DNA from: Burkholderiales bacterium
Lineage (GTDB): Bacteria; Pseudomonadota; Gammaproteobacteria; Burkholderiales; Burkholderiaceae_C
Assembly: GCA_029268225.1 (NCBI GenBank)
Contig: JAJUGJ010000003.1
Coordinates: 124,001-188,000 of the forward strand
Length of the DNA: 64,000 nucleotides
Reading direction: 5' to 3'
Under the pieces are notes generated by a model, which saw only the letters and a program-made list of their open reading frames with translations, was not told where the DNA came from and made no database searches. The position numbers and the translations under genes are program-made. Positions 17,503 to 34,102 of the stretch are shown in pieces; the first letter of the stretch is position 1, and each line of letters opens with the position of its first letter.

Positions 17503-18174
17503 TTAGCGCAGCAACCGCAGTACCTTGAATGCCTCGGCTGCGTCCATGCCGGCTGAGTGGCCACGGTGCCGTGCCAAAAGCTCCGCATGTGCCAGGCTGC
17601 GCGAGTGCGGTGCCTCCCGCATCTCACACGCATACGCGTTCAGCGCGTCCATCTTTTTCGTCAGATGGGCGCTGATGTCCACGAAACACTCGGGCGTGAA
17701 GGGGAGGGCATGTGGGTTTGACCACTCCGTGCTGGACAGGACTTCAAACGCGTAAATCTCACGCACGCTGCTGCCGGGCACAGGGCGACAAGCCGTCAGA
17801 ACCGCTTGCTGTGTGATGCGGTGATCTTCGTTCAGGTCGCCAACGTGGTGGGTGTAGATGACCTCTGGCTCATACGCGTGAATGATGGCTTCCAGCTTCT
17901 GAATGACATCGAGCAGCGGCACACTGTCCATCCGGTTGTCAGGTAGCCCGATGTAGTGATTCCGCTCAACTCCCAGCACGCGCCGGGCTTGCTCTGCGGC
18001 GCTGTCGCGCTGAGCCAGATCTGCTTGCAGCGTGTTCTGGCGAGAGGTCACGCCATCGGCCATGAACACCACCTGCACGGTATCGCCCTCGGCCACATGG
18101 CGTGCAATGGTCCCGCCGCAGCCCAACACCTCATCGTCGGGGTGTGCCGCAACGATCAAAATCTTCTTAACCAT
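17503..18174 (-). CDS. PIG-L family deacetylase
   Basis: A 223-residue zinc-dependent sugar N-deacetylase of the PIG-L/LmbE family. The metal motif AHPDDE is at residues 10-15, a second metal/catalytic region is YTHHVGDLNEDHR near residue 110, and GLPDNRMD follows the usual pattern. Its start overlaps the end of pseI by 8 bases, so it belongs to the pseudaminic-acid operon. Together with the formyltransferase domain encoded two genes upstream, it may remove an acetyl group from a nonulosonic acid or a precursor; that is inference. Confidence 0.85.
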   Translation of the reverse strand: MVKKILIVAAHPDDEVLGCGGTIARHVAEGDTVQVVFMADGVTSRQNTLQADLAQRDSAAEQARRVLGVERNHYIGLPDNRMDSVPLLDVIQKLEAIIHAYEPEVIYTHHVGDLNEDHRITQQAVLTACRPVPGSSVREIYAFEVLSSTEWSNPHALPFTPECFVDISAHLTKKMDALNAYACEMREAPHSRSLAHAELLARHRGHSAGMDAAEAFKVLRLLR

Positions 18175-19213
18175 TGATCAACTCCCACTGCACAGCCATA
18201 CCGCGGGCCACATCCACTTTCACCGTGCGCCCCAGCAGTTGATCGAAGTATTTGGGGGCGACGCCGTAACCCGGTCTGATGCGACGAATGTGCGCCTCCG
18301 TGATCACCTCGCCGGCTTTCATGTCCTTCACGAAATACACCGAGCGGCGATAGCGCTTGCTCGACTCTTCCGCTTGTTGCCTCTGAAAGCCCACCCGACC
18401 CAGTGCAGACCACGCATCCTTCGTGTCCGTGCACAGTCGCTCCAACTCGTGCGGTTCAATCGAGAACTCGCTGTCGGGGCCCTTGTCCTGGCGGCTAAGC
18501 GTGAAGTGCTTTTCGATCAAACATGCTCCCAGCGCCACAGCGGCCACCGATGCCGTCGTGCCCAGGGTGTGGTCTGACAAGCCAGGGATGGTGTTGAAGC
18601 GCTTCGCCAAATGAGGCATCTGAAGCAGATTGGCCTGTTCCATGGGCGCGGGGTAGCTGCTGATGCAATGAAGCAGCACCAGCTCTTTGCAGCCCCCATC
18701 GCGTGCCGCTGCAACCGCCTCTTCAATCTCGTCCTCGGAGCACATCCCGGTGGACATGATCATGGGCTTGCCCTTCTTCGCCACGTACTTGATCAAAGGC
18801 AGGTCGGTTGCTTCAAACGACGCGATCTTGTAGGCCGGTGCGTTCAGCGACTCCAGAAGATCCGCGGCCGATTCATCGAATGGTGTCGAGAAGAGCGTGA
18901 TGCCGATCTTGGCCGCAAACTCGAAAATCTCTTTGTGCCATTCATATGGGGTTTCGGCCCACTTGTACAAGTCGTAGAGCTTGAATCCATCCCACAAGCC
19001 ACCGTGGATCATGAAGTCCTCCCGGTCGCAGTCGATGGTCATCGTATCGGCCGTGTAGGTCTGGATCTTGATGGCGCTGGCCCCGCAGGCCTTGGCAGCC
19101 TTGATCGTCTCAAACGCACGCTCAATGTTGCCGTTGTGGTTGGCCGAGAGCTCCGCAATGATGTAAGGCGGGTGGTCAGGGCCGATGTGGCGGTGTTGGA
19201 TCTGGAATGTCAT
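18167..19213 (-). CDS. pseI: Pseudaminic acid synthase
   Basis: A 348-residue NeuB-family enzyme that condenses 2,4-diacetamido-2,4,6-trideoxy-L-altrose with phosphoenolpyruvate to give pseudaminic acid. Typical regions are YIIAELSANHNGN near residue 18, IKIQTY near 50, MIMSTGM near 150, and a C-terminal SAF antifreeze-like domain (YFVKDMKAGEVITEAHIR). The ATG at 19213 gives the expected N-terminus. Position after pseB, C, F, G and H supports pseudaminic rather than legionaminic or sialic acid. It overlaps the following PIG-L gene. Confidence 0.93.
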   Translation of the reverse strand: MTFQIQHRHIGPDHPPYIIAELSANHNGNIERAFETIKAAKACGASAIKIQTYTADTMTIDCDREDFMIHGGLWDGFKLYDLYKWAETPYEWHKEIFEFAAKIGITLFSTPFDESAADLLESLNAPAYKIASFEATDLPLIKYVAKKGKPMIMSTGMCSEDEIEEAVAAARDGGCKELVLLHCISSYPAPMEQANLLQMPHLAKRFNTIPGLSDHTLGTTASVAAVALGACLIEKHFTLSRQDKGPDSEFSIEPHELERLCTDTKDAWSALGRVGFQRQQAEESSKRYRRSVYFVKDMKAGEVITEAHIRRIRPGYGVAPKYFDQLLGRTVKVDVARGMAVQWELING

Positions 19214-19217
19214 GGCC

Positions 19218-20453
19218 TTAAGCTCGCTGTGTGGGGCTGTTGGACGTGATGATGGCTTTGGCAATCAACACATTGCCTTCCTGTTGGGCATCCGTGAACC
19301 GGATGAGCAAGCCACCGTGTTCAACGAACGCGTGAGGGTAGCCCTCTGCGTCCAGCATTCGAATGAAGTCATAAGTCGCCTCCAGAGATGCCTCTCCGGG
19401 CAGCATGCTTTGCTCAGGTCTGCGGCGGGTGAAGTGCACCACATGACCTTGTTGAGGCGTGGGCTCAGGCTCGTGCTCAACCATCCATTTGATGATCTCG
19501 AAGCTGAGGTCTCCCGCCCTCACATAAACGTCTTGCGCCTTGCCTGCCAGCGACAAGGGCTCCTTCCGGTAAACCGGCCCCGCATCCACTTCGTCAGTCA
19601 TCCGCAAGGCCGTCAGCTTTGTGTCTCGGTGACCCGCGAGGATCAGGTTCTGCAAGGGGCTGCCACCGCGGCCGTACGGCACGTCTGTCATGTGAAAGCA
19701 GACACATTCATGACGCGACCATATGTCTCGCGGAACGATCCAGTTCCAATGCAGGAAGAAGACATACCGAGGCTGGCAGGTGAGGAGTGCCTGTTTCAAT
19801 TCTTCAGGTGAGCTGACCAAGGTCCACGAGGCGTGCACGGCGGTGATCAAGGCCCGGTAGCCCTCCTGATGCCAAGGCTTGCAGGTGGCGATGATGTAGC
19901 TGTGGGCTGAAGCCGAGCCAGCGTGCTGCGTACGGACCTCCGTCAACATGGGCCGCCGTTTGTGCCATTCGTCGCTCAGCATCCCTAGGCGCACGACATC
20001 GGTGTGTTGTTGGCCATCAAAGTGAGCGTGGCGCAGAACGCCTTCCTCCTGAAAACCCAGCTTCTTTTGAAACCTGAGACTCGCCTCATTGCCAGCGATC
20101 ACCTCAGAGTTCAGCTTGTGCAGGTTCAACGCCCCGAATGCATGGTCCATCGCCTCCACGCCCAGCCGCGTGCCGGTTCCCTTGGGGGCGCCTGGCGCCG
20201 CATAAAAGCCCCAAAACGCCGACCGACTCGTTGCCTCGATCTGAGTGAAGTAAGCGACGCCGTCCGGGCAACCTCCTTCGTCCTCATGGATCAACCAGCA
20301 CGATGTGGCGTCGCTCTTGCGTCTCTCGAACCAGGCCTGGTGCTCGGACTCAGAGATCTCGTGCGTGTTGAACATCCACGACCGCACCTCCGGTGCATTG
20401 CGCCATGCGCGCACCATCGACAGATCCTGGGCGGTGAGGGGTCTCAATGACAT
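19218..20453 (-). CDS. pseH: Fusion of PseH-type N-acetyltransferase and a formyltransferase domain
   Basis: A 411-residue two-domain protein. Residues 1 to about 165 are a GNAT domain of the PseH type (RPLTAQDLSMVRAWRN, later NEASLRFQKKLGFQEEG), which acetylates N4 of UDP-4-amino-4,6-dideoxy-AltNAc. Residues ~183-395 look like a formyltransferase fold: FHMTDVPYGRGGSPLQ (His253) and TDEVDAGPVY (Asp290) match the His and Asp regions of methionyl-tRNA/sugar formyltransferases. The residue two before that His is Cys252, where classical enzymes have Asn; Asn238 lies upstream. The second domain probably uses formyl-tetrahydrofolate to formylate an amino sugar. It lies 4 bases before pseI and 3 bases after pseG. 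Confidence 0.82.
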   Translation of the reverse strand: MSLRPLTAQDLSMVRAWRNAPEVRSWMFNTHEISESEHQAWFERRKSDATSCWLIHEDEGGCPDGVAYFTQIEATSRSAFWGFYAAPGAPKGTGTRLGVEAMDHAFGALNLHKLNSEVIAGNEASLRFQKKLGFQEEGVLRHAHFDGQQHTDVVRLGMLSDEWHKRRPMLTEVRTQHAGSASAHSYIIATCKPWHQEGYRALITAVHASWTLVSSPEELKQALLTCQPRYVFFLHWNWIVPRDIWSRHECVCFHMTDVPYGRGGSPLQNLILAGHRDTKLTALRMTDEVDAGPVYRKEPLSLAGKAQDVYVRAGDLSFEIIKWMVEHEPEPTPQQGHVVHFTRRRPEQSMLPGEASLEATYDFIRMLDAEGYPHAFVEHGGLLIRFTDAQQEGNVLIAKAIITSNSPTQRA

Positions 20454-20456
20454 GGC

Positions 20457-21551
20457 TCAATCCCTAGGTTGCAGCAACAACTGACAAAGGGCTGATGCGC
20501 CCTCTCCAGACACCAACGCCTGCCCCATCCGGCTCTGTCGCAACAACGCTTCGGGGTGGCGCAGACTCCAACGCAAGGCGTCGCTGATGGTCTCGGTAGT
20601 CACCTGGCTCATCTCGCCCAGATACTGAATGTAGCCATCATGCGCCAAAGCGGTGTTGATGGGGGTTTGGTTGTCGGCAATGCTCACCACGAGGGCGGGC
20701 AAGCCCAGGCACATCCTTTCCCACGTTGTCGAGCCCCCCGCGCCAATCATCAAGTCGGCACTTACCATCAGCGCAGCCAATGAGGGCAGAGCCTGGTGCA
20801 CGATGGTGTTCGCTCGGCTGGCCGCCGCGGCCTTCACGCCCGACACGTCGGGGTGGTTGGGGCCCAGCACCACATCCACCGCCAGCTCGGCAAAATCCGG
20901 CTGCATCAAGGCATGAAGCGCTTTGAGCGTCTGATTGCTCGGATCACTCCCCCCCAGGAACACCAGCACACGTCGCACCACGCCGTCCACGCGCTTGCGC
21001 TGTTGGCGCCACTGCGCATACTCGGGCTTCAGCAAAGCGTAGCGTGGCCCCAGGCAGCATTGGCATGTGGCGGGCACGCGCTCCTGATAGCGCAACGCAG
21101 TCAGCTCGCCAAACCAGTTCTGATCCAGCAGCAGATCACAATCGTGAGGCCGGTCAGCCAGGTCGTCCACCACCATGATCCGGCTTGCCTGCGAACGCAA
21201 GGCGCGCTCCCAGTTCTGGTCCAGTGCATAGTGGTCCACGATCAGCCAGTCCACCCCGTCTGCTCCCATGACGGCACCACATTGCTGCGCGTCATGACGC
21301 CAATCGGCACCCAGCCAGGCAGCGTGCGCTGGCTCGGTGGCCGACGGGTGATGTGTGGCCACACCCGCCAGGGCATGCACCGCAAACCCGCGTTGCTGAA
21401 TCAATGCGATCAGATTTCCCGGGTGCTCACGGCAAATGAAACTGCAGTGCGCCCCGTGCGCCCGCAGTGCATCGGCCAGGGTCAGGCATCGCATGATGTG
21501 ACCCGTGCCCATCTCCACGGACGCGTCTGCGCGAAAGGCGACGCGCATCAT
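20457..21551 (-). CDS. pseG: UDP-2,4-diacetamido-2,4,6-trideoxy-beta-L-altropyranose hydrolase
   Basis: A 364-residue glycosyltransferase-B-like hydrolase that removes UDP from the pseudaminic-acid precursor. The N-terminus FRADASVEMGTGHIMRCL contains the GxGHxxR loop with the catalytic His, and the C-terminal UDP-binding part has GAGGSTTWERMCLGLPALV near residue 275. The ATG at 21551 overlaps the pseF stop (ATGA), so it is translationally coupled. Length and motifs fit PseG. Confidence 0.92.
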   Translation of the reverse strand: MMRVAFRADASVEMGTGHIMRCLTLADALRAHGAHCSFICREHPGNLIALIQQRGFAVHALAGVATHHPSATEPAHAAWLGADWRHDAQQCGAVMGADGVDWLIVDHYALDQNWERALRSQASRIMVVDDLADRPHDCDLLLDQNWFGELTALRYQERVPATCQCCLGPRYALLKPEYAQWRQQRKRVDGVVRRVLVFLGGSDPSNQTLKALHALMQPDFAELAVDVVLGPNHPDVSGVKAAAASRANTIVHQALPSLAALMVSADLMIGAGGSTTWERMCLGLPALVVSIADNQTPINTALAHDGYIQYLGEMSQVTTETISDALRWSLRHPEALLRQSRMGQALVSGEGASALCQLLLQPRD

Positions 21552-22243
21552 GTGCTGGGCTGCTGGTGCACCTTGAACATCCATTCGGCTTGCTCCCAAT
21601 CCTCTGGGGTGTCAATGTCCTGGACGCGGCGCCTGGGCAAGACAACGGGCACGGCATGATGGCTGAACAGCGGCAGCTGATTCACCCATGCAGACGCCTT
21701 GCCCCAGTAGAACTGCCCTGCATCGTGCCAAGCCTCTTCCAGATCTTGCGAGCGGGTGTGAAAGTGCTCCGGGTAGAACATCTCCACCCGCTGATCTGGC
21801 GTGATGCGAATGGCACGCTGAATGGGAAACGCGAAGCTGGTCACCGAAAACGCATAGGCTGCGCCTGTCTCCTGCAGCAACTGCAGCCCCCGTCGCACAT
21901 CCTCTGCTTGCAGAAAGGGCGCGGTGGCATAAATGCAGCAAACCTCGGTGGGCGCAGGGCCCTGCAACTGCTGCCACTGCGTGGCATGGGCAATGACAGG
22001 GATGGTGCCGGTGTGATCGTCAGACAGCTCGCTCGGCCGCATGAATGGGGTCTCGGCACCGTGGGCCCGTGCCACCTCGGCGATCTCCTCGTCATCGGTG
22101 CTCACGATGATGCGATCAAAGCAGCCACTGTCTTGCGCCGCCTGAATCGACCAAGCCATCATCGGCTGTCCACCAAACAGCTTGATGTTCTTGCGCGGAA
22201 TCCGTTTGCTTCCGCCCCGCGCCGGAATCACCGCCAATCTCAT
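21548..22243 (-). CDS. pseF: Pseudaminic acid cytidylyltransferase
   Basis: A 231-residue CMP-nonulosonate synthetase. The N-terminal nucleotide site AVIPARGGSKRIPRKN (residues 4-19) and the later IDTPEDW near residue 214 are typical. It activates pseudaminic acid with CTP to CMP-Pse, the donor for glycosyltransferases. Four-base overlaps with pseC on one side and pseG on the other show tight operon structure. Confidence 0.92.
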   Translation of the reverse strand: MRLAVIPARGGSKRIPRKNIKLFGGQPMMAWSIQAAQDSGCFDRIIVSTDDEEIAEVARAHGAETPFMRPSELSDDHTGTIPVIAHATQWQQLQGPAPTEVCCIYATAPFLQAEDVRRGLQLLQETGAAYAFSVTSFAFPIQRAIRITPDQRVEMFYPEHFHTRSQDLEEAWHDAGQFYWGKASAWVNQLPLFSHHAVPVVLPRRRVQDIDTPEDWEQAEWMFKVHQQPST

Positions 22244-23400
22244 GCTGTCAACACCTGCTCAAGCGCGTGGACCACATGGTCTTGCTGCGCATGCGTCAAC
22301 GTCGGGTACATCGGCAAGCTGATGGCCTCTGCGTAATACCGCTCCGACTGTGGGAAGTCACCCACCTTGAAGCCCATGCGCGCGTAATACGGTTGGCTGT
22401 GCACCGGGATGTAGTGCAAATTGACACCCACACCACGTTGGCGCAAGGCTTCGAACACCTCCAGGTGGGTCTGGCGGATTTGATCCAGATTCAAGCGGAT
22501 CACATACAAATGCAGCGCCGAATGCGCATCAGGATGCTGCCAAGGCACCGTCACGGGCATGCGTGCCAACAGCTCGTCATAGCGGCGCGCCAGCCCATGT
22601 CGGCGAGCAACATAGTCGTCCAGGCGCTGCATCTGGCTCACGCCCAGCGCAGCCTGCAACTCGGTCATGCGGTAGTTGAAGCCCAGCTCAACCTGCTGGT
22701 AGTACCACGGGCCGTCTGGGGCATGCGTCATGTGCGCGGCATCGCGGGTGATGCCATGGCTGCGCAGCAGAGCCATCTTGTGGGCCAACTCGTCGCTGTT
22801 GGTGAGCGCCATCCCGCCTTCGGCCGTGGTGATGATCTTGACCGGGTGAAAGCTGAACACCGTGATGTCGCTGTACCGACCGTTGCCCACATATTCACCC
22901 CGGTAACGTGCCCCGATGGCGTGAGACGCGTCCTCGATGATGCGAAAGCCATAACGCTGCGACAAAGCATGAATGGCGGCCATGTCGCACGGTTGCCCGC
23001 ACAGGTGCACCACCACCAGAATCTTGGGCAAACGCCCAGCGGCCTCTGCTGCGGCCAGCTTGTCCGCCAACGCCACGGGACACAGGTTGTAGGTGCGCGG
23101 GTCAATGTCGACAAAATCAACCTGAGCACCGCAATACAACCCGCAGTTGGCCGACGCCACAAACGTGATGGGCGTGGTCCACAACCAGTCACCGGGCCCG
23201 AGACCCAGCGCCAGGCAAGCCACATGCAAGGCAGACGTGGCACTGTTGCACGCCACCCCATGCCGGGCCCCTACATGGCCTGCCACACAAGCCTCAAACT
23301 GCGGCACCGCAGGCCCCTGCGTGAGGAAGTCTGACTGCAGCACGCCGATCACGGCGTCCACATCAGCCTGCGTGATCTCCTGGCGGCCGTACGGAATCAT
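22240..23400 (-). CDS. pseC: UDP-4-amino-4,6-dideoxy-N-acetyl-beta-L-altrosamine transaminase
   Basis: A 386-residue PLP-dependent aminotransferase of the DegT/DnrJ/EryC1 family. It begins IPYGRQEI, has the conserved EDASHAIGARY and the PLP-lysine region FSFHPVKIITTAEGG near residue 185. It converts the PseB product to the 4-amino sugar. The ATG at 23400 lies two bases after the pseB stop; the frame remains open into pseB but a longer start is not supported. Confidence 0.92.
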   Translation of the reverse strand: MIPYGRQEITQADVDAVIGVLQSDFLTQGPAVPQFEACVAGHVGARHGVACNSATSALHVACLALGLGPGDWLWTTPITFVASANCGLYCGAQVDFVDIDPRTYNLCPVALADKLAAAEAAGRLPKILVVVHLCGQPCDMAAIHALSQRYGFRIIEDASHAIGARYRGEYVGNGRYSDITVFSFHPVKIITTAEGGMALTNSDELAHKMALLRSHGITRDAAHMTHAPDGPWYYQQVELGFNYRMTELQAALGVSQMQRLDDYVARRHGLARRYDELLARMPVTVPWQHPDAHSALHLYVIRLNLDQIRQTHLEVFEALRQRGVGVNLHYIPVHSQPYYARMGFKVGDFPQSERYYAEAISLPMYPTLTHAQQDHVVHALEQVLTA

Positions 23401-23402
23401 GC

Positions 23403-24401
23403 TCAGATGCTCCCGATCTTGTCGCGGTTGGACTCGATCCACGCCTGCAGCGATTGGTCGCTCATCCACTCGGTGTTGTTGTCGCTGGTGTAGCTGAAGC
23501 CCTCTGGCACCTTGATGCCATCCTTGATGCGGTTGGGATCGTGATCCCAGTTGTGAATCGCCGGCAAGATCTTGAAATGCTCCGGATACTCGTAGGTGTG
23601 ATACGAGTCCTCGGCACTGATCATCTGTTCATGCAGCTTCTCGCCCGGGCGAATCCCCACCACCTCCTGGCGGGCCTCGGGCGCCACCACGCGGGCCAGA
23701 TCCGTCACCTTCATGGACGGAATCTTCTTGACGTAGATTTCACCGCCCTTCATGTCATCAAAGGCGTGCCAAACCAGTTCTACACCCTGCTCCAGCGAGA
23801 TCATGAAACGGGTCATGCGCGGATCGGTGATGGGCAGCACACCGCTGTCCTTGATGGACATGAAGAAGGGAATCACAGAACCGCGTGAGCCCATCACATT
23901 GCCGTAGCGCACCACGGCAAACCGGGTGCTGTGTCCGCCAGCATAAGAGTTACCGGCCACAAACAGCTTGTCAGACGCGAGCTTGGTGGCGCCATACAGA
24001 TTGACGGGGCTGCTCGCCTTGTCGGTGGACAAGGCCACCACGCGCTTGATGCCCTTGTCAATGCACGCATCGATCAGGTTCATGGCCCCGTGGATGTTCG
24101 TCTTCACGCATTCAAACGGGTTGTACTCGGCCGTGGGCACAATCTTGGTAGCGGCAGCGTGCACCACATAGTCCACGCCATCCAGGGCGCGATACAGGCG
24201 GTCCTTGTCACGCACGTCGCCGATGAAAAAGCGCACCCGTGGGTCGCCTTGGAACTTCTTGGCCATGTCCCACTGCTTCATCTCGTCGCGAGAGAAGATC
24301 ACAATGCGTCGTGGGTTGTACTTGGCCAGGGTCATGGGGACAAACGTGTTGCCGAATGATCCGGTGCCACCGGTGACGAGGATGCTTGCGTCTTTGAGCA
24401 T
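23403..24401 (-). CDS. pseB: UDP-N-acetylglucosamine 4,6-dehydratase (inverting)
   Basis: A 332-residue short-chain dehydrogenase-fold enzyme and first step of pseudaminic-acid synthesis. The NADP-binding loop is GGTGSFGNTF (residues 11-20), the catalytic motif LYGATKLASDK is near residue 140, and the family-specific RYGNVMGSRGSVIPFF follows. It is the first gene of the minus-strand operon, with a 144-base divergent region to the rfaH-like gene. I chose the ATG at 24401, which starts right before the Rossmann strand; a very long upstream open frame is a shadow of the rfaH-like gene. Confidence 0.93.
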   Translation of the reverse strand: MLKDASILVTGGTGSFGNTFVPMTLAKYNPRRIVIFSRDEMKQWDMAKKFQGDPRVRFFIGDVRDKDRLYRALDGVDYVVHAAATKIVPTAEYNPFECVKTNIHGAMNLIDACIDKGIKRVVALSTDKASSPVNLYGATKLASDKLFVAGNSYAGGHSTRFAVVRYGNVMGSRGSVIPFFMSIKDSGVLPITDPRMTRFMISLEQGVELVWHAFDDMKGGEIYVKKIPSMKVTDLARVVAPEARQEVVGIRPGEKLHEQMISAEDSYHTYEYPEHFKILPAIHNWDHDPNRIKDGIKVPEGFSYTSDNNTEWMSDQSLQAWIESNRDKIGSI

Positions 24402-24545
24402 GGTGCGCTTACTGTAGTGCTGTGCCCGGGTAATGTAAGCCTGATGAGGCTGGGAATTGGGGCGTATTGTGGATTCCATACACAGGACAACGGACATCGT
24501 TTGCTGAGCAGCGTTCGCCCGTTTCGCTGACAATCTGCACTGCCC

Positions 24546-25064
24546 ATGCCTACGTCCGTCCCCACCCTGAGCACTGCCTGGTACCTGGTGCACACCAAGC
24601 CTAGGCAAGAATTGATCGCTCTTGAGAACCTCTCCCGCCAAGGCTATTGCTGCTATCTGCCTCTCCTGAGTGTTCAGAAAGTGCGCCGAGGCAAAAGCCA
24701 CGTGGTGGCAGAGCCCATGTTTGCACGTTACCTGTTCGTGCAACTCAGCACCGATGAACACGCGCCGAGCTGGGCCCCCATTCGCTCCACTTTGGGCGTG
24801 AGCCAACTGGTTCGGTTCGGGACCCGCCCAGCCAAGGTCAGTGACGACCTGATGCAACGGTTGCGTCAACGTGAGCAGGTTATGCCCACTGAGCGGCTGT
24901 TTGAAGCAGGCGAAACCGTGCTTGTCTCCCAAGGTCCGTGGGCAGGGCTGGAGGCCATCTATCAGATGACCGATGCGCAGGAGCGGGCGGTGGTGCTGCT
25001 CACGATCTTGAGTAAGCCTGTGGCAGTGCCGGTGAGTGCTGCCGCACTGCGGCGGTCGGTGTGA
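24546..25064 (+). CDS. rfaH: RfaH-like transcription elongation factor (NusG paralogue)
   Basis: A 172-residue NusG-family protein. The NGN domain (residues ~10-105) has WYLVHTKPRQE, LSRQGYCCYLPLL and EPMFARYLFVQL, all matching the RfaH pattern, and a short KOW region follows (FEAGETVLVSQGPWAGLEAIY). RfaH is recruited to RNA polymerase at ops sites and suppresses termination and pausing over long surface-sugar operons. A perfect 12-nt ops site lies 163 bases after this gene on the same strand, directly before the polysaccharide operon. That makes RfaH a better call than NusG, which is normally encoded with secE and rplK. Confidence 0.88.
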   Translation: MPTSVPTLSTAWYLVHTKPRQELIALENLSRQGYCCYLPLLSVQKVRRGKSHVVAEPMFARYLFVQLSTDEHAPSWAPIRSTLGVSQLVRFGTRPAKVSDDLMQRLRQREQVMPTERLFEAGETVLVSQGPWAGLEAIYQMTDAQERAVVLLTILSKPVAVPVSAAALRRSV

Positions 25065-25226
25065 TGTTTGGCTACGCACCGTTGTGGTGCGAATTGCCAA
25101 CGCTCACAAATTTCAGAGTGGATTTTCGGAAACGCTCACAGTGCCTCGGCACAATGTTCACCTTCTGACACTGTTTAGGCTCGTTGAAAGAGCCGTTGAC
25201 CGCGCATGCTGATCGCGACACAGCAC
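25065..25226 (+). promoter_or_regulatory. Leader region between rfaH-like gene and ops site
   Basis: No gene is seen here. The stretch holds several short structures: hairpins at 25075-25091, 25141-25152 (GTGCC-TC-GGCAC) and 25178-25194 (GGCTC, 7-nt loop, GAGCC), and a repeated 10-mer AACGCTCACA at 25099-25108 and 25131-25140, 32 bp apart. A promoter for the downstream operon is expected in this region or before the rfaH-like gene, but I could not pick a convincing -35/-10 pair. Confidence 0.4.
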
Positions 25227-25238
25227 GGCGGTAGCGTG
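25227..25238 (+). promoter_or_regulatory. ops element (RfaH recruitment site)
   Basis: The sequence GGCGGTAGCGTG is identical to the 12-nt ops core known from enterobacterial capsule and LPS operons, and is followed by CC. It is in the plus orientation, matching both the rfaH-like gene upstream and the Wzx/Wzy operon downstream, which is what recruitment through the non-template strand requires. Confidence 0.85.
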
Positions 25239-25251
25239 CCCAAATTTCCCT

Positions 25252-25590
25252 ATGACAAGTCACCATGCCAAGATGCAAGATGCTGCCATCCTTCGAGTCA
25301 TGCGCACCTTGCACAACAGCACGGATCTCAGTCAGCTTGATCGGACCGAGCGGCTTGGTATGAGCCTGGGCGTGTGGAACTATTGCTTGAATGCGCCGGT
25401 GGGCAAGAGCTTGGTCAAGCGGGCGCTCTTTCAGAGTGGCCTGCGCAAGTTTAAATATGTATTCGCTTGGCGCCCGACTGGCGTTGCGCGAAAGATGTCC
25501 GTGTCAGACGCTTCCGTAAAAAGCACGATGGATGCGATCTGCGTGTGTAGGTGCCTGAGTCGTGAGCTCACACTGCCGGCTCCGCACTAA
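25252..25590 (+). CDS. Hypothetical protein directly after the ops site
   Basis: A 112-residue open frame starting 13 bases after the ops core. No ribosome site precedes its ATG, which would fit RfaH-assisted translation, or may mean it is not a gene. The sequence (for instance RTERLGMSLGVWNYCL and RKFKYVFAWRPTG) matches no family I know. It could be a short leader protein, a decayed gene, or a chance frame in a 600-base stretch that otherwise holds only the leader. Codon usage is not decisive. Confidence 0.35.
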   Translation: MTSHHAKMQDAAILRVMRTLHNSTDLSQLDRTERLGMSLGVWNYCLNAPVGKSLVKRALFQSGLRKFKYVFAWRPTGVARKMSVSDASVKSTMDAICVCRCLSRELTLPAPH

Positions 25591-25668
25591 ATTTGGGGCT
25601 CATTAATTGAAAGGATTGGGGCTCTTTCTATTACTGCCCCGTACGCCTATCCAAGGCGTCATGTTTTC

Positions 25669-26910
25669 ATGAGTGTTTTTCGAACCGGTGTTGTCTCATC
25701 TTTTGTCCACGCGGCAGGTCTAGCCATCCGCCTGGGCTTTGTGATGGCACTCGTCTACTGGACGAGTGCCGACTTGGTGGGGCTTTACGGTTTGGCTGCT
25801 TCGATCGAGGCAGTCGTCGTCTATTTGGCCGGCATGGAGTTCCACACCTTCACGTCGCGTCGCTACGCGCGTACAGGCGATCGCGCAAAGTTGCGGGTAC
25901 TGGTGTCCTCACATCGCCATTTGCTGCGCTTTACTGCCCCACTCGCCGCATTGATTGGTCTCGTTGCAGCGCTCGCTTTGTCCTTCACTCGGGACTGGAT
26001 TGCGTTAGGCTTGCTTGCAGCGTTGATGACCACTGGGGCTGTTGCGCAGGAATTGGGGCGCTACCTTATTTTGGCGCGTCGCCCAGTCCAGTCAGTGGTG
26101 CTGACCCTGCTGCGCACGGCGGCATGGCAGCCAATTGCGCTACCTATGCTGATTGGCGCCGACTCTACGAACAGCCTGCGTGTTCTGCTGGGACTATGGA
26201 CGATCTCCACAGTTGTTGGAGTTGCGTGGAGCGGATTTCTGCTTAGAGACCTCTGGTGGCCTCTCGCAACATGTCGCAGTCGATATTTGTTGCGCGGCCT
26301 CAAAGAGTCGCGTGCCTACTACGCGATTGCATCGCTGACGGTCGTTCAAAACAACTTGGAGCGTTTCGTACTGCAGTTGCTTTTGGGACCGTCTGCAGTT
26401 GGCGTGTATTCCTTCTTTCAGATGCTGAGCAATACCCTTACAGCTCTAGTTCAGACGGCGACGCTTAACATCGCGCTTCCTAATATATTGATCCGTTTCG
26501 GGCAAGGTCAGCCCGACAGGTTCAAATATCTATCAGACTTGCGGAAGCGGGTATTGCAGATCTGTGCACTTGCTGGGTGCGCCGTTTGCGCTCTTGCTTT
26601 CCCGTTGACCATCGCACTCTCTAAGCCGGACTATATGTTGCAACTCTGGTTGTTGCCGGTGCTAATCGTTGCGCAGACTCTCATGATGTGGACGCAGCCA
26701 ATTCATTTGGCCTTGTATGCGGCTCATCATGACCGAGTTTTGGTTCGTTTGATGGCAGGGTCGCTGGTAGTGGCCTTGGCGTTGGATATTGTTTTCATAG
26801 GATGGCTGGGTCTAAGTGGTGCGGTCATCGCGCCACTTACGGTGTGTTTAATGGTGGCGGCCGTCCGAATTCTGTTTATGAAAATATTGCGTACGAAGGC
26901 ACTACTGTGA
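25669..26910 (+). CDS. wzx: Wzx-type polysaccharide flippase
   Basis: A 413-residue membrane protein with about 12 hydrophobic segments and the layout of the oligosaccharide flippase (MATE/MVF-like) superfamily: an N-terminal bundle (FVHAAGLAIRLGFVMALVYW), then segments such as LVQTATLNIALPNIL near residue 260. It should move undecaprenyl-linked repeat units across the inner membrane. It is the first recognisable gene after the ops site, and its stop overlaps the GTG start of the next gene. Flippases are poorly conserved, so the call rests on topology and on the operon context. Confidence 0.8.
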   Translation: MSVFRTGVVSSFVHAAGLAIRLGFVMALVYWTSADLVGLYGLAASIEAVVVYLAGMEFHTFTSRRYARTGDRAKLRVLVSSHRHLLRFTAPLAALIGLVAALALSFTRDWIALGLLAALMTTGAVAQELGRYLILARRPVQSVVLTLLRTAAWQPIALPMLIGADSTNSLRVLLGLWTISTVVGVAWSGFLLRDLWWPLATCRSRYLLRGLKESRAYYAIASLTVVQNNLERFVLQLLLGPSAVGVYSFFQMLSNTLTALVQTATLNIALPNILIRFGQGQPDRFKYLSDLRKRVLQICALAGCAVCALAFPLTIALSKPDYMLQLWLLPVLIVAQTLMMWTQPIHLALYAAHHDRVLVRLMAGSLVVALALDIVFIGWLGLSGAVIAPLTVCLMVAAVRILFMKILRTKALL

Positions 26911-27440
26911 AGAAGGTTGTTCAGAGTTTTCTATATCGAGCTGCAGGGTCAGGCTTCGCGGTTCTTTTGTATCGCGTTTGTGCCAAGTTCAGGGAAATTC
27001 TGGTGAGACTGGCGTCAATGGCGAAAGCACGTGCGGTCTTTCCGTCTGCCGAGGATCTTTCATTGGATCTCCGCACAACCATAAAGTATTCACAGAACAT
27101 CTTTGTTGGGCGGGGAGTTACCATCGGCGCGGAGTGCGTGATCGGCGCGATGGCTCCGGTGCACATTGGTGATCTGGTGCGCATCTCTCGTGGTGTGACC
27201 ATTGAAACAGCCACGCTCGATTTCTCTACACCACTGCCATACCGGCATGTTGCTCGGCCGATCCACATTGGCACCGGCGCATGGTTGGGGAGTGGGGTAA
27301 CAGTGTTAGGTGGTGTTACCGTGGGCGACCACGCTGTCATCGGCGCTGGCGTCGTTGTGGCAAAAGACGTGCCCCCGCGGGCAATCATTGTCGGCTCAAT
27401 GAACCGGCATATCAGAGACCTTCCAGAGTCAACTCAATGA
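26907..27440 (+). CDS. Hexapeptide-repeat acyltransferase
   Basis: A 177-residue left-handed beta-helix (LbH) acetyltransferase of the WcaF/Maa type. Hexapeptide repeats run from about residue 70 to the end, e.g. FVGRGVTIGAECVIGA, GTGAWLGSGVTVLGGVTVG and DHAVIGAGVVVAKDVP. It probably O- or N-acetylates a sugar of the polysaccharide unit with acetyl-CoA. The GTG at 26907 overlaps the wzx stop (GTGA); the frame is open further upstream inside wzx but this start gives the right length and coupling. Confidence 0.85.
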   Translation: MKKVVQSFLYRAAGSGFAVLLYRVCAKFREILVRLASMAKARAVFPSAEDLSLDLRTTIKYSQNIFVGRGVTIGAECVIGAMAPVHIGDLVRISRGVTIETATLDFSTPLPYRHVARPIHIGTGAWLGSGVTVLGGVTVGDHAVIGAGVVVAKDVPPRAIIVGSMNRHIRDLPESTQ

Positions 27441-28315
27441 GAACCGTAGCGCAACTGCAAGTCTTACGCGAGGGCGTGAAGCCGACGATCCCCACTCGTG
27501 CGTGGCACCGTATTCAGGAGCGTATTCGTCACCCTGCGCTGCGCCGTGGCATCGCAAGGTTCATCGCGTCGGTGCGACCCCGAGGCGTTTCGTCGGCCAG
27601 TCCGGCTCTTAACGAGTTATTTGCTCGTGGGATTGTCACTTTCCCTAAGTTCATTTCGGACGAGAGCGTACTCGAACTCAGGGATGCACTCAAAGCACTC
27701 CCCTGCTTCGACCCTTGGGCAAAAGAGTTAGGGGAGTTCTCTCATGAGAACATACCAAGCCGAACCCACGTGGCGCAGATCCGTCTTGCTCCTTGCGTGG
27801 GCCTGTTGCATGACTTGGCGAGCGACCCCCGTATCCTTGATCTTGCGGCAGGCTATTTCGGCTGCCGCCCATATCTTGATAGTATTCAAGCGTGGTGGTC
27901 GCTATCCGGTCATGATCAGGCCGAGGAGGCCGAGAATTTCCATCGTGATAATGATTCCATCCGTTTTTTGAAGTTTTTTATTTACTTGACCGACGTTGGT
28001 GAGGTCAATGGTCCTCATGTTTATGTCGCTGGATCACACACTTCTGGCAAGCTGCTGGAGCGTCGCCGCTTAACCGACGAAGAGGTCCGGGAGGCATTTG
28101 GGTCCGACGTGCTTTGCATGACAGGCCGGGCCGGTGATGCGTTCATTGAGGATACCTATGGTATTCACAAAGGGCAGTTGCCAATGGCCGGTCGTCGCTT
28201 GCTGGTGCAATTTAGATACTCCCTGACGGAAACCATTTTCCGCTCCCCAGTCATTGTTGCCGGTTCGTTGCAAAATGCCACGGACGCTATGATTTCTCTG
28301 ATACATGACCGCTAG
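27437..28315 (+). CDS. PhyH-family Fe(II)/2-oxoglutarate-type dioxygenase
   Basis: A 292-residue protein of the phytanoyl-CoA dioxygenase family. The iron ligands are visible as HRD in ENFHRDNDS (about residue 175) and a distal His in DTYGIHKGQL (about residue 240), followed by an Arg-containing strand RRLLVQFRYS for 2-oxoglutarate. The ATG overlaps the stop of the acyltransferase gene (ATGA) and its end overlaps the next gene by 11 bases, so it is a true operon member. A hydroxylase in a Wzx/Wzy locus suggests hydroxylation of a sugar or an acyl or amino-acid substituent; substrate unknown. Confidence 0.85.
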   Translation: MRTVAQLQVLREGVKPTIPTRAWHRIQERIRHPALRRGIARFIASVRPRGVSSASPALNELFARGIVTFPKFISDESVLELRDALKALPCFDPWAKELGEFSHENIPSRTHVAQIRLAPCVGLLHDLASDPRILDLAAGYFGCRPYLDSIQAWWSLSGHDQAEEAENFHRDNDSIRFLKFFIYLTDVGEVNGPHVYVAGSHTSGKLLERRRLTDEEVREAFGSDVLCMTGRAGDAFIEDTYGIHKGQLPMAGRRLLVQFRYSLTETIFRSPVIVAGSLQNATDAMISLIHDR

Positions 28316-29780
28316 TTCAGAATCGAAGCTCATACTTTGCCTTATTAACTCTGCTGCTTATTCGCGGAGCTATTTTGAGCAGTTGGCGCCACACCTGCGC
28401 ACCCTCGGTTACAGGGTGCACTTTGCGCTTGATTCTCATTTTAGTGACCATCTACACGGGGCTGGTCAGGCACTCGAATGCGCCGATTACTTCACCGACT
28501 ATCTTCGTGCTAACCCTGGGCCAGTCGCTGAATCGGTTCGCGCCGCTACGACATGGCAGTCGCTGTTTTCTGATTTTGATCGTTGGCTCACTTTCAATCT
28601 AGATGCTCCAGCGCAGGCACACGGGCGATTCCAATATCAGGATATCCCTGCTCAGCTTGATGCGTTTTTCGGCGACATCTTCGAACGGCTCAGCCCTTCG
28701 GCGGTCCTGTACGAGCCTGTGAGTAATAGCTTTGCGCTTGCTGCTTACCGAGCTACTCAACTGCGAGGTGTGCCGTTCCTGAGTATCAGCCCATCGCGCA
28801 TACCGGGGCGCATTGAGCTCAGTACCTCGGGCGCGCTCAAAGACTTCGCAGCCATTGAAGCTGTCCAGGCACGACATGCTCGCGACGGTATTCCTGCCGA
28901 AATTCTGGAGGAAACACTCGCATATCTTGCGTCGATCGATCAGCAGGTGCCGGACTACATGAAGACCAATGGGCTGGACCAGATGAGCTTGCGCAAGAAA
29001 TACTTGAGGCTCGACAAGCTCTCGTACTTCCTGCGTATATGGCGCTACAGTCGAACTCAGCGCTCCGATTGGGCTTTGGCCTATCAGCACGGTGATCCCG
29101 TCGCGCTATCGTTGGCCTATGTGCGACGCGCCATCTGGCGCAAACTGCGGCTGAGTGCAGTGCGCAAGCTGTTCGAAACGCAGCTGCCTGCAGAAAACTT
29201 CTTGGTCTACCCGCTACACTTCCATCCGGAAGCCTCAACCTCCATCCATGCGGCCGACTATGTTGACGAGCTATCTGTGATCAAGGCTGTTGCCTTCCGT
29301 CTTCCGTCCAATGTTAAGTTGTATGTCAAGGAACATCCTTCAGCCGTTGCGTTGCAGCCGCTCGGGTTCTACAAGCAACTGAGCCGACTGCCTAACGTGC
29401 GCCTGATCAGTCCGGAGTTGAACGCCAAGGCCTTGATTCGCAAAAGTCAGGGCGTCGTGACGCTTACCAGCACTGCAGGCTTTGAGGGGGCGGTATTGAA
29501 CAAGCCTGTACTGGCTTTCGGGAATGTCTTCTATCGTTATTTTCCGAATGTTAGAACGGTTGATGGTTTCTCAGACATTGGTGCGAAGCTTTCCTGGTTG
29601 TTGGCGTACCAGCCTGTATCAAACGCCGCGATCGTTCACGCAACCGCGGCCTACCTCGACTTCACCGTGCCTGGCAAATTTGATTTCATGGCTACCCTGA
29701 GCAATGCAGCAGCCATGGGTGGCGTCGCAAGGTTTGTCCATACCAGGCTGAGCTATCACGATACAACGCCTACCTGTTAA
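28305..29780 (+). CDS. Capsule-type glycosyltransferase (Capsule_synth / Kdo-transferase-like)
   Basis: A 491-residue GT-B-fold protein. C-terminal features resemble KpsC/KpsS-like capsule transferases: FLVYPLHFHPEAST near residue 300, the HP motif in YVKEHPSAVAL near 345, and VTLTSTAGFEGAVLNKPVLA near 390. Such proteins transfer acidic sugars such as Kdo, or sialic-like acids. No signal or membrane segment is seen. It overlaps the oxygenase gene by 11 bases and lies 6 bases before the polymerase gene. Confidence 0.78.
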   Translation: MTASSESKLILCLINSAAYSRSYFEQLAPHLRTLGYRVHFALDSHFSDHLHGAGQALECADYFTDYLRANPGPVAESVRAATTWQSLFSDFDRWLTFNLDAPAQAHGRFQYQDIPAQLDAFFGDIFERLSPSAVLYEPVSNSFALAAYRATQLRGVPFLSISPSRIPGRIELSTSGALKDFAAIEAVQARHARDGIPAEILEETLAYLASIDQQVPDYMKTNGLDQMSLRKKYLRLDKLSYFLRIWRYSRTQRSDWALAYQHGDPVALSLAYVRRAIWRKLRLSAVRKLFETQLPAENFLVYPLHFHPEASTSIHAADYVDELSVIKAVAFRLPSNVKLYVKEHPSAVALQPLGFYKQLSRLPNVRLISPELNAKALIRKSQGVVTLTSTAGFEGAVLNKPVLAFGNVFYRYFPNVRTVDGFSDIGAKLSWLLAYQPVSNAAIVHATAAYLDFTVPGKFDFMATLSNAAAMGGVARFVHTRLSYHDTTPTC

Positions 29781-29786
29781 CGCACT

Positions 29787-31049
29787 ATGTCGCGTCGCCG
29801 CCTGCTGCTCCTGCTAGCTTTCGTGATCCTGGCGATTAGCCCGAAGGTGGTTGAGCCAGCCTACAACGGATATCTTGTTGCATTTGTGCTGCTGTTTGTA
29901 TTTGCGCATTTGTATGGTGCCCGGATGGCGGTGTCGCGGCATGTTCCATTTGGCGTCATTTTTCTTTGCGTTACTTGGCTCCCTGTGGTCTTGCTTCAGA
30001 CCTATACACACAGTAACGCGTTGAGGGATGTCCTGCGCGACCTTGGTGTGCTGATGGCCTTCTACGTTGGGTACGCGACCTTGCCGCGTCTGTTTGCATC
30101 TTCGGGAGACGACTGGCGTTTAGAACTGATGCAAGGAATCTCTAATGTCGGTTGGTTTGTGGTGCTGATCACCATTGCCGGGGCGGCTTTGGCATTTCTA
30201 GCTGGTGCCGACGCTTACTTCTGGAGAGGGCAGTATGTGCCCATGGCGCATTCCTGGTTGCCTTATATTTTTGCGGTGAACCTAGGCCTCGCGCGGATGG
30301 ATTCTCGTTTGCGCAGTCGCTACTTGCGGCGTGCATTATTTTGCGTGATGGGGACATTAGCTTCACTTTCCCGCACGGATCTGGTGCTGATAGCACTTAT
30401 CGTAATAGTTCAGGCTTGGGTCCATTTCCGTTATATCGCCAGTGATCCGCGCGCACTACGCTTTGCGCTTATTACTTTCGCGATCGGTTCGGTCACGATG
30501 CCCTTGTTGCTGCAACTTAGCGTTGTTCAGGAGCGTATAGAGGTTGGCGTTGACGAGGATGATCCCTCCCTGGCGTGGCGCTTTATTGAAAACCTTGCGT
30601 TCCTTGATCAGTATCTAAGCGCTGATTCGTTTACGCAGTGGTTCGGCTTCGGTTTAGGTGGTCGATTGTCTTTGCCCCTGGGGGTTGTCGACTTCAATGG
30701 TAACGACACAATCCCTCACCTTCACAACAGCTATCTCACATTAGCTCTCAAGTTCGGAATAATTGGGTTGATTGCACTGCTCTTTTTTCTTTTTCGACTC
30801 GGCCGAGCTTGGTGGAATGCACGAGTTCCATACAAGGGGGGGGTCTTATTGGCCGCAGGATGGATGCTGCTGTTTGTGCTGGCCAAGGCAGTTACGCTGC
30901 AGGGCTTGAGCGAATGGAGTCACGTTCTGTTCTTTGGACTCGCTTGCGCGTTGATCTTCAAATCACCCGATGCGCTGTTACGCAAGAAAAGCTTTGGGCC
31001 CCGACCTGTTTCAGGAATCGCGCCAGTTTCGGGTCGTACTGAATCTTGA
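29787..31049 (+). CDS. wzy: Wzy-type polysaccharide polymerase / O-antigen ligase-like protein
   Basis: A 420-residue membrane protein with about 10-11 hydrophobic segments and a large periplasmic loop. The segment GFGLGGRLSLP...PHLHNSYLTLALKFGIIG near residues 285-330 is typical of the Wzy_C/O-antigen ligase domain. With wzx upstream and wzz downstream, polymerase is the likely role; a ligase cannot be excluded from sequence. It is the last gene before a 535-base non-coding gap. Confidence 0.8.
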   Translation: MSRRRLLLLLAFVILAISPKVVEPAYNGYLVAFVLLFVFAHLYGARMAVSRHVPFGVIFLCVTWLPVVLLQTYTHSNALRDVLRDLGVLMAFYVGYATLPRLFASSGDDWRLELMQGISNVGWFVVLITIAGAALAFLAGADAYFWRGQYVPMAHSWLPYIFAVNLGLARMDSRLRSRYLRRALFCVMGTLASLSRTDLVLIALIVIVQAWVHFRYIASDPRALRFALITFAIGSVTMPLLLQLSVVQERIEVGVDEDDPSLAWRFIENLAFLDQYLSADSFTQWFGFGLGGRLSLPLGVVDFNGNDTIPHLHNSYLTLALKFGIIGLIALLFFLFRLGRAWWNARVPYKGGVLLAAGWMLLFVLAKAVTLQGLSEWSHVLFFGLACALIFKSPDALLRKKSFGPRPVSGIAPVSGRTES

Positions 31050-31584
31050 TGGCGCGAAAATCACGATGTATCGCGTGCGTGCACATCTGCGATAAAAGTA
31101 TCATTTTAAGAATTTTGTCGCGCAAGTTGGTTGCTGTTTGGGGCTGAGTTTTATTAGATATCCAGCATCGTTGCCGGGTGAGTTTTTTTGCCTGTGAGGA
31201 AGTCTCCTGATTAATTTGCGTCGGGCTTCTCTGCAGATGCATAGTCGGTATGAGGTTGCTGGATATTGGTTCGCGTCTAGGTCATCCTGAGAAAAGTGCA
31301 TCTTATTTTTTGCCGGGAATTTTCGTTTTCATGTTGACTTGAGCAAAAGCTGTTGCCGCGGATTGGTTCGGTTTTGTGGTCAATCTTCTATATGAATTTT
31401 TCCTTGATGATTGATGGCCTTTGCTGGTTTTGAGTCAGTGCGATCTTCGGAATTTACTTTTCGCTCGGTTTCAAATATTGGTTCTAGTTGCTTTGGTGCT
31501 GGTTTGGGGGTGCAAGTGATGTGGCCTTTTCGTTGCTTTCTTGTTAATGTGTCGCGAGTCCGCTAACGGATTGCAATTTGCGAG
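31050..31584 (+). other. AT-rich stretch without a gene
   Basis: This 535-base gap contains no frame I can support on either strand. It is clearly richer in A and T, with many T runs, than the rest of the window. A 10-bp inverted repeat (ATATCCAGCA at 31158-31167 and TGCTGGATAT at 31257-31266) is the only structure noticed. It may be the remains of a lost gene, or a promoter region for the two following glycosyltransferase genes. Confidence 0.6.
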
Positions 31585-32724
31585 ATGAGTTTGATTAGAA
31601 TTTTTGTTGATGCGCACCAGTTTGACCATGGTTTTGATGGCGCAGCCTCGTTTATTCAAGGTCTGTACTTGGCGCTTGTTCGGCAGCGTCCTGGAGACTT
31701 TAGAGTTATTCTGGGTTGCGCCAATCCAGATAAGGTTTTGTCTAACTTTGGTGGTGATCCGCACATTGAGGCGGTGCAGTATGGGACGACCAATCGCATT
31801 CGTCGACTCACGTATGACATCCCAAAGGTGGTTGCTCGTTTAAGACCCGATTTTGCGCACTTTCAGTACTTCACCCCGTTGATTAAGACCTGTCCGTGGA
31901 TAGTGACTATCCACGACGTCCTCTTTAATGATTTCCCTCAGTACTTTCCACCGGGCTATGCGCGTCTGCGGAACGTCTTGTTCCCGTTATCCGCTCGACG
32001 AGCCGATTTGCTGACCACCGTATCTGCTTACTCGAGAGAGAGGATTTCCGCTTGGTACGGCATCGATCCAGGACGCATCAACGTGGTTCCCAACGGTGTC
32101 GACCCAAATCGGGCAGGCGAGGTTGGTCTCGCCCCACCGAGTCCCCAAGTGCGCGCGCTTATAGCCTCGCCTTCTGGCTACTTGCTGTGCGTCAGTCGGT
32201 TCGAGCCTCGCAAGAACCAGGCGACAGCTTTGGGGGCTTTCGTCGAAGGAGGTTTCTGGACGCAGGGCATATCACTCGTTTTTGTTGGTAGTCGAACACT
32301 GGAATGCGCTGAGTTTGACGCGGCCTACGAAGCCATCCCGGCTGCGGCCAAGGATAGGATCGTGTTCATGCAGGACTTGTCGTTCGATGATGTTCAACGC
32401 CTGTATGCGCATGCCATTGCGGCGATCTATCCAAGTCTTGCCGAAGGCTTCGGTATGCCGCCTCTCGAGGCTGCCGCAGCGGGTACCCCGTCCCTGTGCG
32501 CGCGAAACACCGCGATGAGCGATTTTGCGCCGCTCTCTCCCTATTTCTTTGACGCCGGAGATCGCGCGGGGTTAGTCCATATGCTTCGGGAGGTTATCGC
32601 GCACCGCGACGTCCATCGAGAGTTGGCAGGCCGAATTGCTGTCGATGTGCGGGGGAGGTTTGCGTGGAGTACTGCGGCGCACGAGTTTGGTCGGCTAATA
32701 GACCACTCTCGAACCTGCACCTGA
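31585..32724 (+). CDS. Glycosyltransferase, GT4 family
   Basis: A 379-residue retaining glycosyltransferase. The N-terminal acceptor domain includes WIVTIHDVLFNDFPQ and ADLLTTVSAYSRERI; the C-terminal donor domain has LLCVSRFEPRKNQ near residue 205 and YPSLAEGFGMPPLEAAAAG near 285, the EGFGxPxLEA signature of GT4. It lacks an obvious ribosome site. It follows the AT-rich gap and may be transcribed through from the upstream operon. The donor sugar is unknown. Confidence 0.9.
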   Translation: MSLIRIFVDAHQFDHGFDGAASFIQGLYLALVRQRPGDFRVILGCANPDKVLSNFGGDPHIEAVQYGTTNRIRRLTYDIPKVVARLRPDFAHFQYFTPLIKTCPWIVTIHDVLFNDFPQYFPPGYARLRNVLFPLSARRADLLTTVSAYSRERISAWYGIDPGRINVVPNGVDPNRAGEVGLAPPSPQVRALIASPSGYLLCVSRFEPRKNQATALGAFVEGGFWTQGISLVFVGSRTLECAEFDAAYEAIPAAAKDRIVFMQDLSFDDVQRLYAHAIAAIYPSLAEGFGMPPLEAAAAGTPSLCARNTAMSDFAPLSPYFFDAGDRAGLVHMLREVIAHRDVHRELAGRIAVDVRGRFAWSTAAHEFGRLIDHSRTCT

Positions 32725-32769
32725 TGAGCATCGGGTGCCCTTCGACTTATGCACTTTGACTTTTTCGAG

Positions 32770-34039: not shown

Positions 34040-34068
34040 TTACGCTTGTCGCATTCCCCTAATACAAT
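34040..34068 (+). promoter_or_regulatory. Possible sigma-70 promoter of the exporter/wzz pair
   Basis: TTACGC at 34040-34045 and TACAAT at 34063-34068 are separated by 17 bp, matching 4/6 and 5/6 of the consensus. Transcription would start near 34075, after the ATG at 34067, which supports translation from 34103. The rest of the 33844-34102 gap holds nothing I recognise. Confidence 0.4.
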
Positions 34069-34102
34069 GCAACCACCAAGATACCTGATTGCAAGGCCGC
34101 AC

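Follow-up and report, generated by a model that had tools for sequence, protein, structure and literature searches.

Does a polysaccharide operon that follows an rfaH-like gene and an ops sequence carry its own RfaH control, or is the 12-nt match fortuitous, a relic, or part of some other signal? The locus that raises this question lies in a 64,000-nt stretch of DNA, which we refer to here as the window. We consider it likely that the window holds a polysaccharide operon carrying its own RfaH control, exerted through a JUMPstart-type leader and ops. The features on which the argument draws are as follows.

24546-25064, + strand: rfaH gene, 172 aa (TIGR01955 match)
25156-25160, + strand: GTTCA, half of a putative MarR_EPS operator (second half not kept in the window)
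25201-25238, + strand: 38-nt JUMPstart-type element (alignment A2, stem-offset test, and Rfam JUMPstart layout)
25201-25206, + strand: flank of the element
25207-25211 and 25221-25225, + strand: stem arms of the element
25226, + strand: one-base spacer of the element
25227-25238, + strand: exact ops, GGCGGTAGCGTG (sequence match)
25252-25590, + strand: divergent MarR_EPS-like regulator gene (TIGR04176, 56.6 bits, below the cut-off of 88)
25669-33843, + strand: polysaccharide genes (family searches and ORF reading)
34046-36373, + strand: Wza-like export protein (Poly_export, SLBB; family searches)
36382-37509, + strand: Wzc-like ORF after the Wza-like gene (read as an ORF only)

An rfaH gene, ops, and polysaccharide genes in one locus

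In an NCBIfam profile search, ORF 24546-25064 scored 166.7 bits against TIGR01955 (curated cut-off, 144.5 bits), and it was the single RfaH match in the assembly (G000; 3,543,910 b). Its top relatives among solved structures were E. coli RfaH chains (E value, 1e-22). The exact 12-mer GGCGGTAGCGTG occurs only once in the window and once in the assembly, at 25227-25238; a gap of 162 nt separates it from the rfaH stop codon; it is on the same (+) strand and lies ahead of a long polysaccharide operon. The first-pass annotation, which had reported an exact ops site in the right orientation after an rfaH-like gene, was borne out on these points; its term "sensor" does not suit RfaH, which is an elongation factor that aids RNA polymerase in reaching the end of long operons.

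The annotation had also placed ops just before a Wzx/Wzy operon. Polysaccharide genes do follow, continuing on the + strand as far as 37509, and those at 25669-33843 comprise a membrane protein in the Wzx position, an acetyltransferase, PhyH, Capsule_synth, Wzy_C, and glycosyltransferases. The first ORF after ops, however, is MarR_EPS-like, and the Wzx-position gene starts only at 25669; family searches returned no match for its product, which is named from its position and from reading. Two minor features were seen in this part of the window: a stem resembling a terminator, which separates the MarR-like gene from the Wzx-position gene (25643-25659; one such stem found and one expected from shuffles), and, inside the operon, 535 nt (31050-31584) without a listed ORF of at least 100 aa.

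Linkage of rfaH and ops in relatives

A scan of named genomes with the RfaH alignment found 562 relatives, of which the best 80 were kept as rfaH loci (largely betaproteobacterial by their titles; 912,526 b, searched on both strands). Exact ops copies numbered 19 among these best 80 of 562 loci, compared with 1 for the reversed control pattern and 1 for the complemented one. Within 500 bp 3' of rfaH and on its strand, 12 exact and 3 one-mismatch copies were present, located 107 to 192 nt beyond the rfaH stop; the control patterns had no exact copy in the same interval and at most 1 with a single mismatch. The outcome that the first-pass annotation had named as refuting, loss of the match from homologous loci, does not arise as such, although 65 of the best 80 loci lack an ops in this 500-bp interval (a few contigs stop early). 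Exact copies in other positions were found 503 nt from rfaH (L084), 4.0 to 4.6 kb downstream of it (L087, L117, L120, and L122), just upstream of it (L148), and on the opposite strand (L147).

We also read 24 rfaH-like loci from the window's own family, with 1.5-kb flanks where the contigs permitted. In the first 200 nt downstream of the gene, ops was exact in two (the window and L013) and carried one mismatch in one (L014); copies with two mismatches numbered four. A variant core, TGCGGTAGC(C/G)T, was observed in rfaH-like loci L010, L016, L018, L025, L048, L050, L167, L168, and L172, and in the first four of these it sits no more than 200 nt downstream of the gene. This variant may be the ops of a related RfaH subfamily.

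A class-level sample of 229 genomes contained 51 with RfaH (E value, ≤1e-20). Apart from that of the window there were thus 50, each carrying the label "same class"; the stretches examined reached at most 6 kb downstream and totalled 334,303 b. In these other orders, 21 of the 50 rfaH loci held ops (19 exact and 2 with one mismatch), always on the strand of rfaH and in two cases upstream of it, and each control pattern had a single exact copy, counted over both strands. No ops was found in the remaining 29 loci within the stretch examined, which in some cases was short. Betaproteobacterial loci and loci from other orders of the class thus share the conserved 12-nt recognition sequence, a point on which the first-pass annotation is supported.

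A leader element of hairpin, one base, and ops

The aligned leaders share a 38-nt element that terminates in ops and reads CGCGCT, TGCYG, 9 nt, CRGCA, one base, and ops. The stem was assessed, without selection for stems, on all exact ops sites in the loci examined that had 45 nt of sequence before them (59 distinct contexts, of which 29 were nonredundant; E. coli included). A stem of at least 5 bp ending exactly 1 nt before ops was present at 20 of the 29 nonredundant sites and in 47 of the 59 contexts; 200 mononucleotide shuffles of the 29 sites averaged 2.1 and never exceeded 5. The counts at offsets of 0 and 2 nt were 4 and 10, partly registers of the same stems.

The rows of alignment A2 were sites already having at least 4 of the 5 stem pairs (L013 and L168, which had both passed this filter, were omitted by hand, and L124 was truncated by the contig end), so that the 99.3% stem pairing in A2 arises by construction. 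Stem covariation within the beta clade of A2 was weak, being matched by 37 of 500 shuffles. The covariance model R1, which had the window among its training rows, scored the window element at 65.6 bits. Folding gave the window hairpin no thermodynamic support: its 26 nt, folded alone, favor another hairpin.

The 5' half of the element (window, 25201-25238) is also complementary to ops itself, with about 10 pairs over the aligned leaders, and in single folds of the whole window element the better structure has this half paired with ops. Such a helix would be an alternative to the hairpin, forming only after ops had been transcribed; its columns hardly vary and therefore lend it no support either way. 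A second small inverted repeat (GGCTC-7 nt-GAGCC, 25178-25194) lies just upstream of the element. At four loci (L057, L062, L073, and L076), the 5-bp hairpin preceding an exact ops is about 6 nt from it rather than 1 nt, and these may represent another class of leader; L073 additionally has a stem register at 1 nt.

The layout of the element is that of the Rfam JUMPstart family (RF01707) as matched on an E. coli rfb leader (61.1 bits): both have 38 positions, a flank, a 5-bp stem, a loop, one base, and ops, whereas every stem letter of the window differs from that of E. coli. RF01707 itself scored the window at 17.6 bits (gathering threshold, 35 bits) and at threshold recovered 0 of 16 beta loci and 0 of 10 class-level loci (best of the ten, 28.6 bits). 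We therefore rejected it as a finder of leaders outside E. coli. By its layout, the window element would work like JUMPstart, though we do not file it as a member of RF01707. A model that includes the hairpin would aid the annotation of polysaccharide operons, since the Rfam model, at its threshold, missed every scanned leader outside E. coli.

A MarR_EPS partner

The ORF that follows ops (25252-25590) matched TIGR04176 with an E value of 2.1e-15, under the curated cut-off, and on this profile evidence we regard it as a divergent MarR_EPS homologue. Homologues of the window type come after 13 of the 15 linked ops sites among the best 80 of 562 loci; the two exceptions are L124, where the contig ends, and L139, where none was seen. 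Within the order, MarR_EPS comes after the leader element in 12 of 16 genomes with an element hit (the search profile includes the window protein).

For other orders, a profile built from the beta MarR_EPS proteins was applied to 19 of the 21 ops-holding rfaH loci (L200 and L255 were excluded) and gave a match in 17. The matched gene lies between rfaH and ops in 12 loci, after ops in 4, and before rfaH in 1 (L265). The gene order is thus rfaH-ops-MarR in the betaproteobacteria and often rfaH-MarR-ops elsewhere. The matched proteins are about 200 aa long and score just 44 to 60 bits; they are therefore remote homologues at best.

Upstream of ops, an inverted repeat, GTTCR-N3-7-YGAAC, was present within 150 nt in 22 of 28 beta leaders with an adjacent MarR_EPS gene (shuffled leaders: mean, 0.07; maximum, 1), and it often follows a -10-like hexamer, as judged by eye. 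We infer from this that MarR_EPS has its operator at the repeat, close to where transcription starts. Only the first half of the repeat (25156-25160) is retained in the window, and a scan of the window leader found no sigma-70-like promoter. With a half repeat, a divergent MarR protein, and no promoter found, the MarR_EPS layer of regulation may be decaying in the window.

Co-occurrence of the element with RfaH, linked and unlinked

The R1 model was run over the same family and order samples as the RfaH search. Among 200 family genomes, strong element matches (E value, ≤7e-8) occurred in 7 and RfaH (E value, ≤2e-25) in 24; all 7 element genomes were among the 24, the window and G002 being training rows of R1. 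The element lies beside rfaH in 2 of the 7 (the window and G002) and away from it in 5: at 1.7 Mb (G073), at 15 kb on the opposite strand (G029), and, in three genomes, on contigs other than that of rfaH, which may or may not be near. A weak family match (G097; E value, 0.008) came from a genome without RfaH.

The order gave a similar picture, with element matches (E value, ≤3e-5) in 16 of 399 genomes and RfaH (E value, 1e-20) in 44. Fifteen of the 16 element genomes were among these 44; 9 of the 16 were R1 training rows, and of the other 7, 6 have RfaH. The distance from element to rfaH was at most 6 kb in ten and 514 kb in one (G530), and in four genomes the two lay on different contigs. G261 (locus L193) has a strong element without a clear RfaH, only NusG-level matches and a short partial one. 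Three further R1 matches in the order were weak (E values, 0.003 to 0.009). The sample included two further genomes from the genus of the window, and these have neither RfaH nor the element.

From these distributions, rfaH and the element seem to come and go together. Since the element is found with both linked and unlinked rfaH genes, linkage is optional, and one type of element probably serves in cis as well as in trans. The first-pass annotation had stressed that rfaH and its target sit together, so that the locus may carry its own control; the linkage stands for the window, but it is neither peculiar to this locus, 21 of 50 rfaH loci in other orders holding an ops, nor obligatory, 5 of the 7 family elements being unlinked.

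Residues and predicted fold of RfaH

In E. coli RfaH, K10 and R73 are ops-contact residues (PMC7593976). With residues numbered by alignment to that protein, the window RfaH keeps K10 and has a leucine (L83) in place of R73; of the autoinhibition residues, E48 is kept (as E56), I93 is replaced by M103, and F130 is replaced by Y139. Among homologues with ops at the locus in alignment A3, K10 and T72 were kept in 23 of 23 and arginine stood at residue 73 in 0 of 23; in alignment A4, which shares three rows with A3, 3 of 15 homologues had R73 and 13 of 15 had K10. The best PDB match of the AlphaFold2 model of the window protein was recruited E. coli RfaH. Its C-terminal domain was predicted to be beta and NusG-like, and that of a gammaproteobacterial control (L202, whose fold is not established) was predicted to be beta as well; the prediction therefore does not discriminate between fold states, and we draw nothing from it on the alpha-to-beta switch of this domain.

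Alternatives to RfaH recruitment at a JUMPstart-type leader

That the 12-mer is a chance match might be suggested by its frequency, as it occurs somewhere in 128 of 200 genomes sampled from the window's family; because the bare 12-mer is that common, the window copy takes its meaning from its place. Near matches mean nothing here, since 11 copies with up to two mismatches were seen in the window and 8.5 were expected. Place, strand, recurrence, and the extended element all speak against chance, and we rejected this explanation on the basis of place and recurrence (the best 80 of 562 loci and the 50 other-order loci); its probability is negligible. It is unlikely, though a good deal less so, that the palindrome upstream of ops is a DNA operator (e.g., for MarR_EPS) rather than an RNA hairpin. 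Stem covariation would fit a palindromic DNA site equally well, the beta-clade covariation is weak by the shuffle count given above, MarR_EPS adjoins ops in most linked loci, and the 26 nt of the window have a better fold than this stem. Yet the distance from stem to ops is fixed at 1 nt while the stem letters change, in the E. coli JUMPstart as well; no MarR_EPS is annotated in the 2.4 kb viewed around the E. coli JUMPstart; and the separate GTTCR-N-YGAAC repeat, with its 22 of 28 leaders, is a better operator candidate.

A further alternative concerns the protein: RfaH might act in cis without ops, engaging polymerase close to the rfaH gene as has been proposed for an ancestral, NusG-folded RfaH, with ops being a relic or a mere pause. 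The position of rfaH next to its operon, the absence of R73, and the NusG-like beta C-terminal domain predicted by AlphaFold2 are all in line with this idea, as is a preprint in which RfaHs predicted to be NusG-folded act without ops and mostly lie beside long operons (PMC13015549). However, an exact ops is kept beside diverged rfaH genes, and the element tracks RfaH even where the two are 514 kb (G530) or 1.7 Mb (G073) apart; the fold prediction, shared by the gammaproteobacterial control, is uninformative. We regard action in cis without ops as quite improbable and prefer recruitment of RfaH at ops within the JUMPstart-type leader. Counting against this preference are the 65 of the best 80 loci without ops in the 500-bp interval and the 29 of 50 other-order loci without it in the stretch examined, the leucine at residue 73, the competing folds of the window element, the failure of the scan to find a sigma-70-like promoter, and the strong element of G261.

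Proposed mechanism

Under RfaH recruitment at ops, transcription would begin at a promoter within the 162 nt that follow rfaH and yield a leader RNA carrying the 38-nt element (flank, 5-bp hairpin, one base, and ops). By analogy with E. coli RfaH, a polymerase pause is expected near U11 of ops; RfaH supplied by the neighboring gene would contact the non-template ops bases exposed there and exclude NusG, and it would then load a ribosome and remain on the polymerase across the operon of about 12 kb. Because relatives also carry the element apart from rfaH, the window RfaH should act in trans too. In relatives, MarR_EPS probably controls initiation at the upstream inverted repeat; in the window, the repeat and the MarR_EPS-like protein both appear degraded.

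The hairpin has its base 12 nt upstream of U11, the 3' end of the RNA at the pause, and the hairpin of the his pause has a spacing close to 12 nt. At this distance the leader hairpin could therefore set the pause register or limit backtracking, and it may do so while RfaH loads. In E. coli, the polymerase pauses at U11 and RfaH reads flipped non-template ops bases (PMC5995543 and PMC11001881); the ops-paused complex is described in PMC11001881 as distinct from hairpin-stabilized pauses.

We offer a broader reading tentatively, with somewhat less than even confidence. Outside the enterics, rfaH, a MarR_EPS regulator, and a leader of hairpin, one base, and ops would form a recurrent module; ops recognition would be older than R73 and older than the unlinked, trans-acting RfaH of E. 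coli; and the hairpin would be a second, overlooked signal for pausing or against backtracking alongside ops.

Relation to known systems

The window resembles the E. coli RfaH/ops system in having an RfaH-family protein over the cut-off and an identical 12-nt ops before a polysaccharide operon. It differs in the linkage of rfaH to ops, in the leucine at residue 73, and in the MarR_EPS-like gene that comes first in the operon. JUMPstart, with its stem-loop, is listed for gammaproteobacteria in PMC2864571, and ops and RfaH have been tested in Yersinia (PMC12607645). UpxY of Bacteroides and TaA of Myxococcus are likewise specialized NusG paralogues encoded with their target operons, for which no ops recruitment is described in the parts of PMC7593976 drawn on here; the window protein scores 68.7 bits as UpxY (cut-off, 100 bits) against 166.7 bits as RfaH. 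The RfaH genes of clusters CL2 to CL8 (Wang et al. 2020, PMC7593976) also lie near envelope polysaccharide genes. Those of CL4 lie near a helix-turn-helix regulator, as the window rfaH does (PMC7593976). For CL2 to CL8, neither an adjacent ops nor a hairpin is reported in the sections of PMC7593976 drawn on here.

These comparisons bear on how RfaH-type factors came to choose their targets. A late origin of ops contacts, R73 among them, is argued in PMC7593976. A cis-first model of RfaH is set out in PMC7819879. In the preprint PMC13015549, 17 of 212 RfaHs predicted to be metamorphic lie next to an operon, and RfaH genes beside operons are linked mainly with ops-independent, NusG-folded forms. 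An rfaH gene beside an exact ops and lacking R73 has a bearing on both the late-R73 and the ops-independence claims. For the JUMPstart stem-loop, the element also defines a fixed distance of 12 nt to the pause site, one that is seen again where the stems differ.

A literature search, which left most subscription papers and supplements outside its reach, returned no report of rfaH-ops linkage in betaproteobacteria and, within the same limits, none of a MarR_EPS partner or of this leader element. Judged from the sequence comparisons, the RfaH-ops/JUMPstart arrangement is real and recurrent; its kind is known, and what is new is a JUMPstart-type leader missed by Rfam together with a MarR_EPS partner. 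The earlier reading of the locus had missed both the larger hairpin-plus-ops element and that partner.

On the other side of rfaH, the window holds a divergent block of sugar genes (17503-24402, - strand) that looks like a nonulosonic acid pathway, with NeuB-, NeuA-, DegT-, and epimerase-like genes assigned by eye.
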